Below are positions 6,082-27,385 of a stretch of 28,936 bases of DNA, one piece after another; the stretch's first letter is position 1, and each line of letters starts with the position of its first letter. The notes beneath the pieces were generated by a model, which saw only the letters and a program-made list of their open reading frames with translations, was not told the DNA's origin and did not search any database. Made by a program: the position numbers and the translations under genes. Source of the DNA: Ectocarpus siliculosus (Eukaryota > Sar > Phaeophyceae > Ectocarpales > Ectocarpaceae); NCBI GenBank assembly GCA_000310025.1, contig FN649733.1, forward strand, positions 3,155,149 to 3,184,084. The letters are read 5' to 3'.

Positions 6082-9000
6082 ATGCACAACAAAAAAGCAC
6101 GACGCCAGGGACGAGCGAAGGGAACCGATGAGGCGTTAGAAGAAGGAGGACCAAGCGTTGAGCACACCGGTCCGCAGTCGGTTACTCTGCCCGCCGTGGA
6201 GCAAAGGCTCCGTACGAGAATCGATAAGTTCGTGCGCGGATACGGGCTAACGCCAATGGGTGAGGCGGTCGCTCGCAGTTGGATACAGGTGGGTCCCACA
6301 CTGCATGCCTATTCAGTTTTCCTCGTCGTCGCGTAGATGACCTCTTCGTAATGCTGCGCGTAGCGAGGGTGTATGCGCATGCTGCTGTTTTGATAGGCAC
6401 CTGACGTGTGTTCCTGTCGCACTCGTGCGGCGTGCTTGCTCTCATTGCCATAACATGCTTAAACCACTGCCTTGGCTTTCCTATTCGGCACGACGATGAG
6501 CGGGGGGGGCGTTGACCCCTCCCACGGGACGAAAGCAATCGGAATTTGTCACAAAAACTAACAAGTGCGCATTTCCTGCCCGTCGTCACTCTAATACTGC
6601 GGCCAGAGTATTGGATCAGACTCTACCGGAGATTTTTCTCGGGTGCGCGGTTGGCTTGTCGGCCGACTGAACTCGTTTGGATCTTCAGGGATATCTACGT
6701 CGGCATCAAGCAAATGGCAAGCGGGCTGCCCTGAGATAATACCCGGTGAGCTAGTATACGGCTGTCCCGCCCAGGTCACGATGGCATGCAACCCTTCATG
6801 CCATCCGCGGGTACGGCAAATCGGTTTCCTCGTCTGCTGGCTCAGACAGCACACTCACATGCCCAACAAAATATACTAGTTCATCACAAGGGTTGACTGC
6901 CCGATACGCTTGGTTCCTCCCAAAGGGTTGGTCCGGTGTTCACCACAACCCAATGCCCTACGTTCCACGAGTTTCTTGCCGAACATCACCGGCACATGTA
7001 CAAAGTACTCTCATCATCATGGGTTGCGGTGTGGAACACTGTGTATACCGCAAATCGTTATCACACAAAGCATGATTACAAACGGATCCTGAGGTATAAA
7101 GCCTCTTCTTTTCTGTTGGGGCGTGTCTCGCCGCTACTACTCTCGTCCAACAAAATCGGCGTTTTTTGTCCCCAACCTATGCTTGCTGTCGCTGGCTTGA
7201 TGATTTGAAGGTTTGAGGTCGAAGGCTTTCTGGTCGGCGGAAGACTTCGACTTTCCATGGGTGACCGACTTCGAGAAAGGATTCCACGACGTCAGGGAAG
7301 AGCTGCTCGCTCTACGGGGACGACGAGGATTCCAGGTGAAACAATTGTTCATTGTGCAAAATTGGTAGTTTACACCCCTTTGTGGTACTACGTAATAAGA
7401 CGTTTCTCCCTGAGATACTGTTATTAAGGAGGACCCGATTCGCAGGGTATCCGTCGATTGACTTTTACCAGAATCGGTACACCTTCGCATATATATGGCG
7501 TCAGCTGGATACTGGTTCGAATCTCCTTGGGTGCACGTTTTTTCTCCTGACTTGGACATTTTCCCATGGACACCATGTGTGTCAGTCCTGAGAACACCTC
7601 TTGGAATCGATCCTATAAATAACCTTGTGACACTTCCATCGAATTACCCGTCCTGGCCACAAGAGGTTCCCAGTTGAGGGTAAATTCTGTGGGTGGAGAG
7701 TGTTAAGGAGGACCCGATTCGCAGGGTATCCGTCGATTGACTTTTACCAGAATCGGTACACCTTCGCACTGTCATGTCGAATGTCATGGTAGGGTACGAG
7801 TGGATTCCATCAGAAAAATGAGTGGTGCTTCGCCTCACCGGAGATATTCCATGTACCCGACGGTTTAAGAATTAAGAGGGGGTATGAAAGGACAAGACCC
7901 ATCCCCCCCTGCCCTCTCGCTCCTTTCTGGGCCCTTACTGTTACCGTTCTGACCCATCAGCCATACAGGGCGCCCAATGGCGGATCGTGCAGTGGAGACT
8001 TGGCGGCGAAGGATGGTGTGGGGAGCCATTGCCATGAAGGGGGAGATTGGAATGTATTTTACCTTTTTTTGCACAGCGTCGTCGACTTTTCACAGGTGCG
8101 TGAGACAGCGCTGATATAAAATGGGAGCAGGTAACTTGCGTTGAATTAAAATCTCAGAACCTACAGCAGTATGAAAGCTGGCTAGACATGGAGGACCTAC
8201 AACCAATAGTAGGCTGGAAGTGCTACTACTCCCATCTCTATCTCCCTCCCCGCCCCCTGCCTCGATGGACTTGTACTCTAATCTTAACGTCGTGTCGGTT
8301 GCATGTCTTGCTACAATTTTGCATGTATCGATCAGAATCGATCCATGTGCCCGAAAACGGTGAAGCTGGTTGAAGCCCTGCCACGCCACCACAAACACGC
8401 CTTTTTCTCGGCACTGGCACCCGGCACCCATGTCGTCAAGCACAACGGTGAGACCCAAAGCTGGAGCAAGTAGCGAGCACGGCAGGTGAACACGAGAGGG
8501 AGAAAAAGGTGATGCATCTCGTGCAGCAGGATACACTCGTCGTTTAACTTCTTCGCCACTTCCTCTCTGGCAGGATCGCTGGAGTTACCATACCGTGCTC
8601 CCTGCCCACATTACAAGCCAAACGTTGACTACCGTAAGAGTCGGAGAGATGGCACCCCCGTGTTAGCGTTTTTGTATAGAATATTTCTCCACAACCAGGG
8701 GGGTACCACTGCCGAGAAGGGTAGTATTGGAAACATCTCGTCGAGGGCTTTCCTGAGAGGTATCGGTTGGTGTTCGCACCCTCCTAGTTGTGGAGAAATA
8801 CGCTACAAAAAAACGCTTACACGGGGGTGCCATCTCATCGACTCTTACGGTACCCACGATACGACTCACCGAAGCTTCAACCGCTTCCCTCAAACTCCTC
8901 ATTCGCGACGTTTTTCATCCTTTATGCGAGCCTGCAGGTCCGACCAATAAGAAGCTTAGGGTGCATCTTCCACTCCTCGGTCCGGGGGGTGGACTCTCCC

Positions 9001-11290: not shown

Positions 11291-12222
11291 TAGTGAACGC
11301 ATGCTCGAGCAACCAACCAGGACGGGATCAACCTCGATCGATCAACCGCGTAGATGTGAAGCTGTTGCTGGTGCATCACCTGCTGCTGCTGTGTTTTCAT
11401 TAACGCAAGGGCTTTGTACGCTCTCTTCGAAGCATGAGCGCTGATGATGCAACTCCCCCCTAACACAAGACAGGACAGGAGATACCTAAAATCCGTCCCC
11501 TTTGTGAGCTGACAAAAAAAACGAAGAAAAAAACACCAGAAAATATTCAAAACACTACCAGCACCAGCGCTAAACCCAAACCAAAAGTTGTCGCAAAAGA
11601 AAAAACCATCGCCGGCGAACAGGATGTTCCCAAACGAGCCAGCAAGAGTAATCAACAGGGCCTCTTGGGGGGGGGGGGGGGGGGCTCCTTTTAACACAAA
11701 AAAAAAANNNNNNNNNNNNNNNNNNNNNNNNNNNNNNNNNNNNNNNNNNNNNNNNNNNNNNNNNNNNNNNNNNNNNNNNNNNNNNNNNNNNNNNNNNNNN
11801 NNNNNNNTAGTAAACCCATCCTGGACCACCCACCCGGGAGGGGTTCACCCTGGTTGGTTCACCCGGGTAAATGGAAAGCTGTGGTGGGGCCTCCCCCGGC
11901 GGTGGTTGTTTTTTAATAAACCAAGGGGTTTTTTCCCTTTTTTTGAAAGCAGGGGCGGGGAGGAGCAAACTCCCCCTTACCCCAAGCCGGGCCGGGGGAT
12001 CCTAAAATCCCTTCCCTTTTGGGGGGGGAAAAAAAAAAGGAAAAAAAAACCCCCAAAAAATTTTAAAACCCTTCCCGCCCCCGGCGTAAACCCCAACCAA
12101 AAAGTTTTCCAAAAAAAAAAACCCTTCCCGGGGGACCGGGATTTTCCCAACCGACCCACCAGGAGTAATCAACGGGCCTTTTGGGGGGGGGGGGGGGGGG
12201 CTACATTTAAACACAGAATAAA
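11291..12222. other. Assembly artefact: one locus represented twice around the gap
   Basis: Bases 11291-11707 and 11808-12222 align along their whole length at an offset of about 516-517. The right copy has blurred homopolymers and many substitutions, typical of a poor read end. The left copy deteriorates only after its poly-G tract (11667-11684), where the right copy becomes clean (poly-G 12183-12200, then CTACATTTAA). The two contig ends therefore overlap, and about 516 bases here are probably surplus. Open frames crossing this stretch should not be trusted. Confidence 0.85.
11708..11807. other. Assembly gap, 100 N
   Basis: Exactly 100 Ns, the usual placeholder for a gap of unknown size. 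The flanking duplication implies that the true gap is zero or negative. Confidence 0.99.
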
Positions 12223-13879: not shown

Positions 13880-20150
<6,271 letters not shown>

Positions 20151-23100
20151 ATGAGGAGCGCGTCAGCTTTGTTCTTCGCGGCGCTGGGGGGGGCAGGATT
20201 CTCTATCGGCGGTGCGGAGGCCGCAGGAGGGTTTTTCGCTTCCTCTTCGCCGGCCGGCGGGGCGGCGGCGGCGCGACCAAGAGGAGGCTTCTTGCCCGGA
20301 TGGGGGCTTCCTCGTCACGAGAGCGTCCTCGATAGGGTGAGTTGTTGATCCCCGCAATGATCAGGCTGTCGTCGTTTGTTGGCGCAGCAGCGGTGTAGGT
20401 GGTGGTTGGGAGTTTGCCGTTCTTGTCGTGGTGTGCTGCTGCAGTGAAAAGTAGGTTGTGTCGGTGATGTTGGAGTCGGTCGTGGTAACACCGGCCGTGG
20501 CGAGGAATTCTTTCGCTGGCTTTTTTGCATTTTGGCGGGAGGGGGAGGATTGTGTTCCAGAAGGGGAACGGCAGAGATGCGTGGGGCTACACTGAAGGAT
20601 GGCCGCCCTCGCAAACCAGCATTGTTGCATCGCTGCATACGGGGTAGTGGCGTCACCTGGTCTGTTTCATTCAAAAAACAACGTTTGAGCGTGTACATAT
20701 GCATACAACCCATAGCACACGTGTCGGCCTGACGCTGGTGCACTGCAGCTGAACCAGACCCTACAGCAGTAGCTGCTTCTTCCAGCTAAATAGTGTCGTC
20801 TCATTCCCCGTTGAGAGGAGGAGCAAGCACTAGCACGCGTCACACACAGAGCACTTGGTTGACCTAAAATCTCGTGTAAATGGGCATGTGAGATCTTCAC
20901 TCGTGAGGCCACGTGCAACACATTTAGGCCACGCGCACGTTATGGTTTGTCGTTCTTCATATGCATTCTGCTGTGTGACACCCACGCACGGAAATTGATG
21001 ATTGCCCAGCCCATGTATACCGCTTTAACATTGTACAATGATCCCAAGGGTTTGGGCGGTTTACCTCCACGCCGAACAAGCGAGTTGAGACACATTCCAC
21101 ATTGGTACCATTTTGAGTGGGTTTTAACGTTTTAACATTGGACACAAAAAAACATACACCGCTATGTTGTCGATTAGCGAGGAAGGCTACAACAAGGTTT
21201 GCCCATTCTACGTTGAGAGATTTTGTTCTTCAGCATTATTGTTCATGTGCTTCTGCCAGGCACGCTCTGAGCGGTCGCTCTATCCCCGAGTTCGCCATCG
21301 GCCGTTGTCCAGACTAATTGATCGAAGTAATATCCATCATGGATCAACATATATTAGTGTAGATAACGCATCCAACACTTCGGGAACCGCAACACCATGT
21401 TTATGTACCCAACGTCCGGTTTTGATCGGTATCTGCAGCAGCTGGGGCGAGAATATGGAAAACACGTGGTTGATGGATGTTGCGGCGACTATATACGATG
21501 CATATCTTACCTGTGGTTGACAGTTAGCACTGCGGACTTTTCTCGTTGGATGCTACCAACTGCTGGTGTGGGAAAGACACTTGGCGAGTGATGCCTCGGT
21601 GTTTGTTGCACAAGCTGATGTGATTCAGGTGCACTTATGCGCGTGCCACTCGGCCGTGTTGTTGCGGCCGGACTTCGCAGCCCTCTCATCCCAGTGCTTC
21701 TGTATTCATACGAATCTCGTGCGCATGCACACAAACCGACACAGCAGGATTGACACTGCTCTCCTCCAAGCAAGCAATACTCGCTGCTGCTGTATCGAAC
21801 CGAAAGAGGTTCGCGTCAGCGGACCGACAAGCGCGCTCGGCACGCATGGGAATGGATTACTATTGCTCGACGGCTGTCACCACCCGTGGGCACGTACTAT
21901 AGTAGCTGCCTGTGGAAGTGAGCAGTAATTTCATTTGGGCTATTGTAAAGACAACTGTTACCTGGGAGGGTTCCAAAAACATGACGTGTTTGCGCAACGG
22001 GTGCGTCCGCCACAACTGTAACTCGTGGAGTAGTTCGACAGCAGTACTTGTGGGGAGGTTGGTGAGAGGTCCGGTCTAGTACATGTACGTTCGCCCTCTC
22101 GCCTTGCTGCTCAAGCACTCCTGCCATCAGTTCGGAGCAGCAGCAGACGGGGATCAATCGTCGCTCTTTTTTTGTAGCTGCGGGAGCGTTTGTTGGAAGC
22201 GTTGAAGATGTTAGCGTAGTGGCACAGAGGCCCTGGAAGACCGGACCCATGATGGTGTGATATCTTGGGGCCGGACTGCTGTACATACACAGACAAGATA
22301 GACAACCAGTTGGTTGCCGGGAAAGCACAGCGGCACGGAAGCTCCTTCCGCGCGGCCTCTCGCGCCCGCCCCTCGCCTCCTTAGTTACCGGTGTCAAGGT
22401 GTCGAGTACTGCCACAGCAGTCTGGCACCACACTGCGGCGAATTAAGAGAGAAATAGTTGGGCGGTGTTGTCTTGCATCTACCAGCAGCCAGCAAGTGTT
22501 TTTGTGCGGCTTCTCGAATGGTGTTCTACCCGAATGCCGTCGGGGCGGGGGTACTGCTTGTCGAATGGGCGAGCGAAATCGGCGCTTGAGTGTTTTCAAG
22601 ATTAAGTCATTCAAGATGAAGTCACACCATCTGCGGGAAAAGTACCGAGGGTTGGTGGTGGTCTGTCTTTCGGCGCCCCGGCTGCAGTTTTGTGGCAAGG
22701 TCATGGACAACGATAGCTGTGGCTTAAAAAAGAACTCGCAAACATCGCTGGCTCTCATTTGCCCGCGTTTGCCCGACCGCCGCTCCTTCTCTTTTTTCCC
22801 TTTCCTGGGTGTATTTGCACACCTCCCAATAAACAGGTGGTGCGGCTGCGAGGGGGAATGCAGCTTTTCGTCAAGACGCTTACGGGGAAAACGGTTACCG
22901 TGGACGTTGAGCCCGGAGATTCTATCGAGACGCTCAAGCACAAGATTCAGGAGAAGGAGGTGGGTCATTGGGCGATATGTAGGTACCTTACCTCCCTAAT
23001 TCGTTTTGCGGACGTTTGTCTGTCACACCGCCGTCACGAGTGTAAAAGGCGACGTTAACGGGCCTGAACCAATCTTGCTGGACGTAGTTCTTGACCCCTG

Positions 23101-24037
23101 AGTTACAGCGACAGAATGGCGTTGTGATCCGCTGACACATGGATTTGGGGAAAGGTCTCGATGAGGTTGTTCGTAGGCAACGTTAGTTTAGCTCGAGCAC
23201 GCCCCACCGCCCATCCATATGGAACTTTCGGGCTAGGATCGTGATGAGAGGGAGTGGTGCACGCCGTGACTCGTACAGTACGGTACATTCGTAAGTTTCT
23301 GTCTGTTGCGATTTGATCAAGCTAAAGCTGAGGAATTTTATTTGGTGCGGGGGATATCGGCGAGCTGCGGCCTTGCTGCCGTGCGTGTAGGGGTGTTTTA
23401 TCGACTGCCTAGAAGAATTACTGCAGATTTGAAGCCAGCTTGGTTGTATGCATAGTATGAGCCTCGTGCTCTTTCTCAACTCAGTCCGTGGAGCCCGCGT
23501 TGCTTGCCGATCAAATGCACGAAATCTTTGAGGCAAGTTGGCGACCTATTTGCGTAGAAGGGTTGCTACTACACTGCGTGTTTGTAGACGTGAACGATTG
23601 TTGTCTCTACACCATAGACGGAGGCGACATGCATCGGTTTAAAACCTCTTCAGAGTCCCCTGTTCATTCGATCACCAAGTATCCCCAAATCGATGCTCTG
23701 TACAGCGTATTCACTTTCTGATTTCTCTTGCCCCTCCTTTTTCGTCTTGCTTCAATGTTGCTGCTGGCTTCCCGTAACCCCTGCAAACATGCCACCGACA
23801 ACGACACAGGGCATCCCGGCGGAACAGCAGCGCATCATCTTCGGCGGGAAGCAGCTGAGCGGGGCGGACAAGCAGCTCAGCGACTTCGAGCTCGAGGAGG
23901 GAAACACGTTGCACCTTGTGCTGCGCCTGAGGGGGGGACCGGAAGACGACGTCCCCTCCCCGTGGCGTTCTGGCTCCAGCGAGGAACGGCGAGGGCTGGG
24001 ATGGTTCGGCTGGAGGACCACGACTGCTGAGGCGTAA
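20151..24037 (+). CDS. Ubiquitin-like protein with a probable bipartite plastid/periplastidal targeting leader (PUBL-like)
   Basis: Three exons are inferred: 20151-20336, 22837-22959, 23810-24037, all phase 0 and GT-AG, giving 178 residues. Exon 1 (62 residues) begins [18 protein letters not shown], a clear signal peptide likely cut near GGAEA, then a Gly/Ala/Ser/Arg-rich acid-poor segment like a transit peptide. Exon 2 supplies VVRLRGG and then Met1 of a ubiquitin fold: [26 protein letters not shown]. Exon 3 continues [11 protein letters not shown] through [10 protein letters not shown]. Equivalents of Lys6, 11, 27, 29, 33 and 48 and the Ile44 patch are present; Lys63 is Glu, and one residue is inserted after Lys48. 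A 32-residue tail follows Gly-Gly and would need removal before conjugation. In algae with red secondary plastids, a plastid ubiquitin-like protein acts in the SELMA import machinery; the leader fits that role. The ubiquitin fold is certain. The join from exon 1 across 2.5 kb is inferred. Confidence 0.78.
20337..22836. other. Inferred intron 1 of the ubiquitin-like gene
   Basis: Intron of 2,500 bases, with a GTGAGT donor at 20337 and an AACAG acceptor after a long pyrimidine tract at 22836. The open frame at 22391-22999 (plus) and its antisense counterpart are long, but neither has a convincing motif. Extra phase-0 exons inside this interval cannot be excluded. Confidence 0.55.
22960..23809. 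other. Intron 2 of the ubiquitin-like gene
   Basis: Intron of 850 bases with a GTGGGT donor and an ACACAG acceptor, between the Glu34 and Gly35 codons of the ubiquitin fold. The open frame at 23488-23721 has no recognisable motif. Confidence 0.85.
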
Positions 24038-25051: not shown

Positions 25052-27385
25052 ATGGGTTGCTCCAGCTCGAGAGATGAGAACGGAGAGGTTGTCTCGTTCG
25101 AAAGATCAGAGCCCCTTCTGGACTTCAAATGCAAGGTGGGATCCGCTTGGCAAATACGCAAATACGGCACTGCCTGCAAGGCAGTTGTTCTCACAAGCAG
25201 CGGACTGATCTATGCCTTGCGCCTTTGGTGTAATGCTGAAAGAAGCCCCGAGCACTCAGGAATTGCAGTAGGCAGCCGCAATGCTGCAGTGTTCATGGGG
25301 TGCTTGGCGAAGGTATTCTCCCACCCTTCCTGCTGTATATGGTACAGCACCGGCAGTGTCTCGAGATGAATTTTAATTTTCGGCGTCGCCATCAACACGT
25401 ACATAATGGCCAGTGCGTTGTAATTTAGCCGACATACACGAGGAGCGGGCTGCCGGGTCATCCCGCGTAACAGCAACGTGCGGTATGCCAACACATAGGC
25501 TTCTTCCCATCCTCACACGGAGCATTACAGCAGGTTCCAAAGCACAGCAACAACAGTCGATTTTTTGCTGCCTGCCTTCCGGAGCACATCTCCCCGCACG
25601 GACGACGTGAACAGCAGCAGTATTGTAAGTAACGAAGGACCACGGCGATACTGCTGTACGTGAAACGTCCCGCTTTTACACCGACTTGATCAGTTTCTCT
25701 CGACGTTCTGGAAAGAGTGCCATTCTCTGACGCGCTGTCGATCTGGAGCTATGCATATGGTTGCCGCTCTAACTGAGTGGTGAATTCTCTCATTTTTCAA
25801 GTGCGGTTCCGTGTTGTTTTCGTCAACTCTTGTAGTTGAGCACCTACTTCCTTGTAGTTGAGCACCTACTTCCTGGAGACCCAAACCTTGCAGTGTATTC
25901 CAGCAAAAAGGGAAGGCATGTCGACGACTTTCGGCTGCATACAACATACAACCCATCACCGTTTTTTTAAAGGCGTGAACGGGGTGTGCATATCCACTGA
26001 GATGTATGCATACTACACACGAGATGCGTCCCATCGCCCGTTACTTTTTTGGTTCCCGAGACACCCGTGGACTGTTTAAGGGCGCGGGGGGGATCGCAGT
26101 ACTTCCTCTTCAAAAAAACAGGAAACGCCTGGAAACGCCTGCATATCTCGGTTTTCCAAAGTCTAACTCCAGTACGAAACTACCATCGTAAATTAACCGT
26201 CCGCAGCGGTCGCTTGTGTACAATGTTAGTAGCTGAGGTTGTACCCCTTGCGATACACTACAGACTAGCGGTCCGCGATTTTCCAAACGATCCTTCTATC
26301 ATCGAGTTCGGTGAACTACAAGCTAGATTTTTGAAGCTGCTGTGCGGTCCAATTTTGAAACGCTTCAAGCACACGGTGAACACGAATCACCGCCTATGTG
26401 AGTGTATGGGGCCGCGAACTTCGAGCGCAGCTCTTCCCTCACATATCCAGCTGGTCGCCATTGTCGATTTGAATGCCTAGGGTCATGTATATGCATGTCC
26501 AGCCTTTAGGAAAAGGTGCTTGAAGCGTTTCAAAATTGGACCGCACAGCAGCTTCAAAAATCTAGCTTGTAGTTCACCGAACTCGATGATAGAAGGATCG
26601 TTTGGAAAATCGCGGACCGCTAGTCTGTAGTGTATCGCAAGGGGTACAACCTCAGCTACTAACATTGTACACAAGCGACCGCTGCGGACGGTTAATTTAC
26701 GATGGTAGTTTCGTACTGGAGTTAGACTTTGGAAAACCGAGATATGCAGGCGTTTCCTGGATTTTTCAGAGGAGGTACTGCGATCCCCCCCGCGCCCTTA
26801 AAGGATTTGGAACTTTGCTGCAAGCGTAATCTGTCGTCGTTCGATGCGAAACGGACGGCACAAATGTTTGTATCGCCGTGACTCTTGCTGTGCACACGGC
26901 GCGCAGCATTTGGTGGGTGGTGCGGCAGCAATTCTGGACGGGCTCCGAGAATTCAAATTTCCGTTAATGTTGGCGATCTGTTGAATGTGACCCCGACAAA
27001 CCTTATGCACCATCGAAACATCGAAACCCATGCTTCCGGGAGCGGTTGGCCTAAGAGCTCCTCCAGGGCTTCGTTGTAGGGCGTGAAGAACTTCCGCAGC
27101 CCCTCCATTACGTCGTCCGTTACCAGAAAACATGCACGAGTGCGCGCGCGCACACACACGGTGGCGGTGGGGAGGGCATATGTTTGCTGCTTACCTTTCG
27201 TCATGTAGCCCATGCATTCATTCATGTCACAAACTAAATAACTTGGTGCACGCGGGCCCCCTTTTTGTCCCGCTTGGAAGGGTTTCGAGCATGGAGGCGT
27301 GCAAGTGGCGCAGTGCGCGGTCCAAGGCTGGCGCAAGACCATGGAGGACGTGGCGTTGGTGCAGTTCGGCGTCCCTCCAAGAGAG
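25052..27385 (+). CDS. Probable N-myristoylated protein phosphatase 2C, first two exons
   Basis: Exon 1, 25052-25135, begins MGCSSSRDENGE. Met-Gly-Cys-Ser-Ser-Ser fits the N-myristoylation consensus (Gly2, Ser6), and Cys3 could be palmitoylated, so membrane anchoring is expected. It ends with an AAG/GTGGGA donor in phase 0. Exon 2, 27281-27385, follows a CCCCCTTTTTGTCCCGCTTGGAAG acceptor tract. It reads GFEHGGVQVAQ, CAVQGWRKTMEDVALVQF, then GVPPRE before a GTACAT donor, also phase 0. GWRKTMED matches the opening motif of PPM/PP2C Ser/Thr phosphatases, in which the Glu-Asp pair helps bind the metal ions. The DGHGG block and the rest of the catalytic domain are not in the window and should lie to the right. 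The exon 1 to exon 2 join is inferred from phase and from myristoylated PP2C precedents; an intermediate exon is possible. Confidence 0.6.
25829..25872. repeat. Two-copy tandem repeat, 22-bp unit
   Basis: The unit CTTGTAGTTGAGCACCTACT(TC) occurs twice head to tail without mismatch, at 25829-25850 and 25851-25872, inside PP2C intron 1. Confidence 0.9.
26075..26802. mobile_element. 728-bp fold-back element with long inverted arms and TTAA ends
   Basis: Left arm 26075-26372 and right arm 26516-26802 are inverted copies around a 143-base loop. The inner part of about 230 bases appears identical; the outer 60 bases differ by a 9-bp GGAAACGCC duplication in the left arm and a few substitutions. 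Each outer end is TTTAA/TTAAA followed inward by GGGCGCGGGGGGGATCGC, and pairing stops exactly there. TTAA at both termini suggests a TTAA target duplication, as with piggyBac-type elements. There is no transposase. The loop contains no recognisable gene. It lies inside PP2C intron 1, so its transcript would fold into a near-perfect hairpin. Confidence 0.85.
26953..27142 (-). pseudogene. Sulfotransferase C-terminal fragment, antisense in PP2C intron 1
   Basis: On the minus strand the frame reads VTDDVMEGLRKFFTPYNEAL and then EELLGQPLPEAW, continuing to a TGA at 26955-26953. The L..F..P.N..L.ELLG pattern is the C-terminal signature of carbohydrate and heparan-type sulfotransferases. These are abundant in brown algae, where they sulfate fucans and other wall polysaccharides. 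No catalytic PAPS-binding motif is seen upstream (to the right), and there is no AG acceptor immediately before the motif. It lies inside an intron of an opposite-strand gene and next to a fold-back element. A captured or decayed gene fragment is the simplest reading; the tail of a nested gene is the alternative. Confidence 0.5.

Follow-up and report, generated by a model that had tools for sequence, protein, structure and literature searches.

A probable periplastid ubiquitin of the SELMA import machinery encoded in the nuclear genome of the brown alga Ectocarpus siliculosus

Introduction

Why would a ubiquitin be made with a signal peptide? This question is raised by a locus in a stretch of 28,936 nucleotides from the brown alga Ectocarpus siliculosus (contig FN649733.1, here C8, 3155149-3184084; hereafter the window, whose positions serve as coordinates unless a contig is named), in which an exon coding for a signal-peptide-like leader lies upstream of two exons coding for a divergent ubiquitin. 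The initial annotation proposed a candidate periplastid ubiquitin of the symbiont-specific ERAD-like machinery (SELMA; ERAD, endoplasmic reticulum-associated degradation). This proposal is supported by an RLRGG motif upstream of the domain, the loss of Lys63, the divergence of the domain, the position of an intron and several loci of the Der1, Cdc48, Ufd1 and E1 types in the same genome. We conclude, with good though not full confidence, that the gene encodes a nucleus-encoded periplastid ubiquitin (PUBL, sUbi) of the SELMA machinery that imports proteins into a complex plastid of red algal origin. The protein adds a good new example to a kind already known and does not amount to a new system. 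Among the matches listed in literature searches for SELMA in Ectocarpus, brown algae and kelp, no title addressed this gene, most subscription papers being outside the scope of these searches, and a brown algal periplastid ubiquitin may well already be included in Stork et al. 2012.

Gene Structure and the Probable Joining of Exon 1 to the Ubiquitin Exons

Three exons on the + strand (20151-20336, 22837-22959 and 23810-24037) of 186 nt (62 codons), 123 nt and 228 nt splice in phase into 178 codons followed by TAA. The predicted protein consists of a 62-residue leader, the sequence VVRLRGG, a 77-residue ubiquitin domain and a 32-residue tail. As first described, the 62-residue exon 1 ends in phase 0 at AGG/GTGAGT, and its open join to exon 2 is phase-compatible; exons 2 and 3 stay in phase to the TAA. 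Intron 1 (20337-22836, 2500 nt) reads AGG/GTGAGT...aaacag/GTG, and intron 2 (22960-23809, 850 nt), which lies between Glu34 and Gly35 of the domain, reads GAG/GTGGGT...cacag/GGC; the junctions of the alga's own polyubiquitin genes (AAG/GTNNG, cag/GAG) broadly resemble these signals. The next phase-0 exon had been described as a divergent ubiquitin, and its divergence and phase stand, except that the exon does not begin with the ubiquitin: it starts with VVRLRGG (22837-22857), directly before the ubiquitin Met.

This short sequence is central to the question of whether exon 1 belongs to the gene. An RLRGG in frame and immediately 5′ of the ATG is found at only this one of the 857 ATGs of the window, counting both strands. 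Upstream of the ubiquitin Met the frame is open for 40 codons, back to a stop at 22714, without an in-frame ATG. The genome search for ubiquitin domains (as for all own-genome searches here, over 189,456,909 bases in 492 contigs) recovered from the window only two exon pieces of one domain and no second ubiquitin unit. The RLRGG is most likely coding sequence and, since the open frame offers no ATG and the window no other ubiquitin to which the motif could belong, one or more upstream coding exons are needed.

Exon 1 is the best candidate for such an exon. Signal peptides were sought with a home-made score (a hydrophobic 9-mer, a basic n-region and the -3/-1 rule). Among the 25 ATG frames of at least 25 residues that start between 19145 and 22836 on the + strand, only exon 1, at 20151, combines a passing score with a consensus donor, which is in phase 0. 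The frames starting at 22616 and 22703 share a donor at 22979, 20 nt past exon 2; they run in a frame that differs from that of the ubiquitin, and either lack a cleavage site or score low for hydrophobicity. On score alone, 6 of 296 ATG frames of at least 40 residues pass in the whole window (plus strand 2/130, minus strand 4/166), the candidate among them. With the donor required, 3 of 434 whole-window frames pass, again including the candidate, compared with a single one of the 305 antisense frames of six other loci. That exon 1 is an open frame proves nothing by itself, because all three + frames run through almost its whole length without a stop and the GC content by codon position is flat (0.66/0.71/0.68).

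These observations bear on the alternative that survives best, a divergent leaderless ubiquitin with transcription starting near exon 2 and translation at the Met at 22858, exon 1 then being part of another gene or a chance frame. The ubiquitin exon does have its own ATG, exon 1 sits 2.5 kb away, and its flat composition would suit a chance frame. However, the in-frame RLRGG would then have to be a coincidence within an untranslated region, and the only signal-peptide-like start with a consensus donor among 25 upstream frames would be a second one. In intron 1, nine + frames were scanned (frame 21367-21591 and the minus frames lay outside the scan) and none matched a protein family over its cut-off; one gave a sub-threshold match to Emr1 (E 0.003, 17.9 bits against a cut-off of 25). 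We therefore regard a leaderless ubiquitin as unlikely. A transposon origin of intron 1 was also considered and set aside, as an own-genome DNA search, which has a common-word caveat, returned a single match, the intron itself.

A Divergent Ubiquitin Domain Without Lys63

The domain is encoded by the end of exon 2 (residues 1-34, 22858-22959) and the beginning of exon 3 (residues 35-77, 23810-23938, closing with a second RLRGG). Pfam assigns a single ubiquitin domain to residues 72-144 of the protein (86.2 bits, E 1.2e-24, cut-off 25.4), a match overlapped by those of two related ubiquitin-like families. The domain is identical to human ubiquitin at 50 of 76 positions (66%), one extra residue being inserted near position 53, whereas the alga's own polyubiquitin is identical at 72 of 76 (95%). 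Leu8, Ile44, His68, Val70 and the terminal RLRGG are retained, as are Lys6, 11, 27, 29, 33 and 48. Lys63 is replaced by Glu in an ungapped stretch between LSD and TLHL. According to the review PMC5756292, all periplastid ubiquitins are without Lys63. The upstream RLRGG and the loss of Lys63 were both absent from the initial annotation, and they strengthen the assignment to SELMA.

The structure of the gene also speaks to its origin. The candidate is interrupted between Glu34 and Gly35, the own polyubiquitin genes between Lys63 and Glu64. Because the intron positions differ and the identity is low, the candidate is unlikely to be a recent copy of the host polyubiquitin gene. The RLRGG before the Met suggests that the gene arose from an inner polyubiquitin unit, and VVRLRGG is likely the remnant of a preceding ubiquitin C-terminus; it is possible that it also serves as a deubiquitinase cut site. 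A present-day polyubiquitin was rejected, as near-identical tandem units are missing and the window holds one domain, of 66% identity, in two exon pieces. Relatives in viral contigs were sought as well, and 12 pattern stretches yielded none that was confirmed. Two other divergent ubiquitin-like genes were seen elsewhere in the genome (L003, C205:33641-34300; L007, C11:1646050-1647291), whose extensions past the Gly-Gly have FADVS segments in common when compared by eye.

A comparison with described plastid ubiquitins places these features in context. Like the PUBL of Toxoplasma gondii (TgMe49_223125), as described in PMC5487736, the candidate has an N-terminal targeting extension, an RGG before one ubiquitin domain and a C-terminal diglycine. 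In Toxoplasma, PUBL is required for apicoplast import. Its RGG lies immediately before the ubiquitin domain and is not cut; the C-terminal diglycine is needed, the upstream one is not (same source). Since the Toxoplasma protein is uncut there, cutting at the candidate's upstream RLRGG need not occur either. The divergence is of a similar kind, PUBL being 56% identical to Toxoplasma ubiquitin (PMC5487736) and the candidate 66% identical to human ubiquitin. In contrast to the candidate, Toxoplasma PUBL is 311 residues long, has no signal peptide at its N-terminus (a recessed one has been proposed) and carries its domain at the C-terminus, according to the same text; the candidate has a short leader with a signal-peptide-like start at its N-terminus and a 32-residue tail that begins with Pro. 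It also resembles, by description only, the periplastid ubiquitins (sUbi/pUb) of diatoms, cryptophytes and haptophytes, which consist of a leader plus a ubiquitin and, according to PMC5756292, are without Lys63. Phaeodactylum 54323, named first of a plastid/cytosolic pair in PMC5487736, is presumably the plastid one. The own polyubiquitin genes (C8:417-421k and C86:104-108k) share the ubiquitin fold and the tandem logic of RLRGG followed by Met, but differ in having many units and one residue past the last Gly-Gly. If the assignment is correct, the locus offers a brown algal gene for a periplastid ubiquitin that is complete and readable, its domain bounded by RLRGG on either side. That the upstream RLRGG is common to Toxoplasma PUBL suggests that both may derive from an internal polyubiquitin unit that retained the tail of the preceding unit; if so, a single origin of SELMA across lineages would have in this motif a shared mark that can be tested.

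The Leader and Its Destination

At the level of sequence, and conditional on the exon 1-exon 2 join, the leader is bipartite, with a signal-peptide-like part followed by a transit-type part. The former (20151-20222, if the cut falls after AEA) has a best 9-mer Kyte-Doolittle mean of 2.18, one basic residue in its n-region and no acidic residue there. The cleavage site is ambiguous, since the home-made rule allows nine sites: AEA/AGG is the most canonical, GAG/FSI would give Phe at +1, and AGG/FF, three residues past AEA and just beyond the scanned range, obeys the rule as well. The remainder of exon 1 (20223-20336) codes for 38 residues rich in Ala, Gly, Ser and Arg, with one Glu and one Asp, so that the initial description of an acid-poor segment is borne out. 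A further claim, that the leader on its own exon was acquired by exon shuffling, finds no support: searched against the own genome at E up to 10, the leader with VVRLRGG returned one match, itself, in a search whose low-complexity handling could mask leader copies.

Could the leader carry the protein onward through the plastid envelope? The initial annotation took the absence of a Phe at +1 as a mark of periplastid cargo. This argument is not supported, the site being ambiguous: the likely cut, AEA/AGGFF, puts Ala at +1 and Phe at +4 and +5, the alternative GAG/FSI would put Phe at +1, and the first 15 residues after AEA contain no acidic residue. In the ASAFind 2.0 paper (PMC12136025), periplastid leaders have acidic residues and stromal leaders are nearly without them in the first 15, a criterion that is a trend of its leader set and not a definition of PUBL. 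A stroma-targeted ubiquitin-like protein would thus match the stromal leaders of that set in its Phe residues and in its lack of acid. On the other side stand the leaders of light-harvesting proteins in the same genome. This family (PF00504) has 87 matches; 2 of the 12 loci fetched were readable, and both leaders are ASA/FV, with Phe at +1, in a listing that kept a frame if it held a Phe motif or stayed open to the end of its piece, and that leans towards Phe. The 87 matches and these two leaders fit an ochrophyte, perhaps a brown alga. Judged by these sequences, Phe at +1 is used for plastid cargo at the two light-harvesting loci; in this position the window leader is unlike them. Moreover, the domain retains the Gly-Gly end and Ile44, which would be needed by the ubiquitin enzymes and by the Cdc48 cofactors in the periplastid compartment. 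The leader alone does not decide between periplastid space and stroma; the cargo does, and with this cargo a stromal destination is quite improbable. A secreted or endoplasmic reticulum-lumenal ubiquitin-like protein, for which a plain signal peptide would suffice and in favor of which the low-complexity Ala/Gly of the second leader part also speaks, is more improbable still, given the 38 further leader residues, only two of them acidic, past the likely cut, and an RLRGG junction and Lys63 loss that match the periplastid family.

Candidate SELMA-Type Machinery in the Same Genome

The genome was searched for SELMA-type partners. Der1 gave 7 matches at 4 places (C26, C31, C23 and C12), CDC48_N was found at 2 places (over the cut-off on C8, under it on C11), UFD1_N1 gave 4 matches on 3 contigs (C7, C16 and C2), the E1 domain PF10585 gave 5 matches on 2 contigs (C31 and C14), and the search for ubiquitin E2 enzymes gave 29 matches, unsorted. 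These loci are consistent with a host ERAD system plus SELMA. With a signal-peptide-like start and a donor required, 2 of the 6 Der1/Cdc48 loci show such a candidate first exon, on C23 in phase 0 and on C12 in phase 1, the latter with its donor 67 nt past the ATG. At the C23 Der1 locus (L012), the candidate first exon, MVLRHPACLGSVVLLALGLTPTAGRVSP..., ends in phase 0 at GTG/GTACGT, about 1.7 kb upstream of the Der1 exon. The Ufd1 loci gave no trusted leader: signal-peptide-like frames numbered 2/42, 1/25 and 1/40, with the donor not required.

The Cdc48 locus on C11, whose divergent N-domain exon was recognized on visual inspection and with a hand-joined fragment, also has a leader-like frame. 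In a longer upstream piece, 1 of 79 ATG frames is signal-peptide-like, ASASGGFFGPLAGGGG; the frame, MKNTVFAVVAAAAVDGASASGGFFGPLAGGGG (L016, local 6251-6496; C11:5442250-5442495, +), contains an (A/S)GGFF step as in the window leader. Aligned with the window leader, it reaches a score equaled by 3 of 2000 shuffles (4 of 2000 when the signal peptides are left out of the comparison). The other leader pairs are weak, their scores being reached by 1833 of 2000 shuffles for window and Der1 C23, 140 for window and Der1 C12, and 978 for Cdc48 and Der1 C23. The C11 frame was not used as supporting evidence, as it lies 2.7 kb upstream of the first recognized Cdc48 exon with a lysine-rich frame in between, and an own-genome search returned itself and three matches at E 3 to 8.

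The C-Terminal Tail and the Gly-Pro Junction

After the second RLRGG the protein continues for 32 residues to the TAA (23939-24037). Pfam, at E 0.001, recognizes nothing in this tail, and a ubiquitin-ribosomal protein fusion was rejected on this ground. The tail begins with a Pro immediately after the Gly-Gly (Gly76-Pro77 in human numbering). Ubiquitin-Pro junctions are poorly cut by deubiquitinases. In the literature on such junctions, which was available in part, no support for deubiquitinase resistance was found. Because a homopolymer of seven G stands at the Gly-Gly codons, an assembly error at the start of the tail is possible. If ordinary deubiquitinases indeed leave Gly-Pro uncut, a dedicated Pro-tolerant protease might gate the start of import, or the ubiquitin might remain unprocessed and built-in, acting on Cdc48 unconjugated; we consider either version unlikely. 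The Pro makes the maturation of the protein directly testable.

A Proposed Pathway and Its Weak Points

As a periplastid ubiquitin of SELMA, the precursor would enter the endoplasmic reticulum by its signal peptide, which would then be cut off. Trimming by a deubiquitinase is possible at the upstream RLRGG/Met, and a deubiquitinase would have to take off the 32-residue tail after the second RLRGG, exposing the Gly-Gly. Periplastid E1, E2 and E3 enzymes would then attach the ubiquitin to incoming preproteins, and periplastid Cdc48 with its cofactors would pull the tagged preproteins through the Der1 pore. The loss of Lys63 would suit a pulling tag that does without some of the usual chain signaling. 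Location, processing and conjugation are all inferred for the candidate from its sequence.

Several points weigh against this interpretation. The splicing of exon 1 to exon 2 is inferred from phase and the upstream RLRGG; the 2.5 kb intron 1 could conceal further small exons; and the home-made signal-peptide score lets through 6 of 296 window frames. The leader chemistry, with Phe at +4/+5, the alternative GAG/FSI and no acid in the first 15 residues, fits the stromal description and does not clearly say periplastid. The identity values bear only indirectly on a placement of the candidate with plastid homologues. Paralogue counts do not assign loci to SELMA, and the second E1-type locus could act in the SUMO or NEDD8 pathway instead. 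Four of the six Der1/Cdc48 loci are without a leader under the donor-required filter, some of these being expected host copies. Finally, it is unusual for a precursor to carry a Pro right after the Gly-Gly at which it has to be cut.

Neighboring Features of the Window

Head-to-head with the ubiquitin gene and about 1 kb away lies the first exon of a Ras-family small GTPase (19012-19128, - strand; Pfam Ras, 42.8 bits), of the Rac/Rho type by eye. At 11690-12200, a gap of N is followed by an apparent error-rich copy of the sequence before it, judged by eye and likely reflecting assembly trouble. Downstream of the gene, a near-perfect inverted repeat occupies 26075-26802, with arms of 250 nt at 26123-26372 and 26516-26765 (99%) and outer arms at 26075-26115 and 26762-26802 (93%), and resembles a foldback or MITE (miniature inverted-repeat transposable element)-type element.

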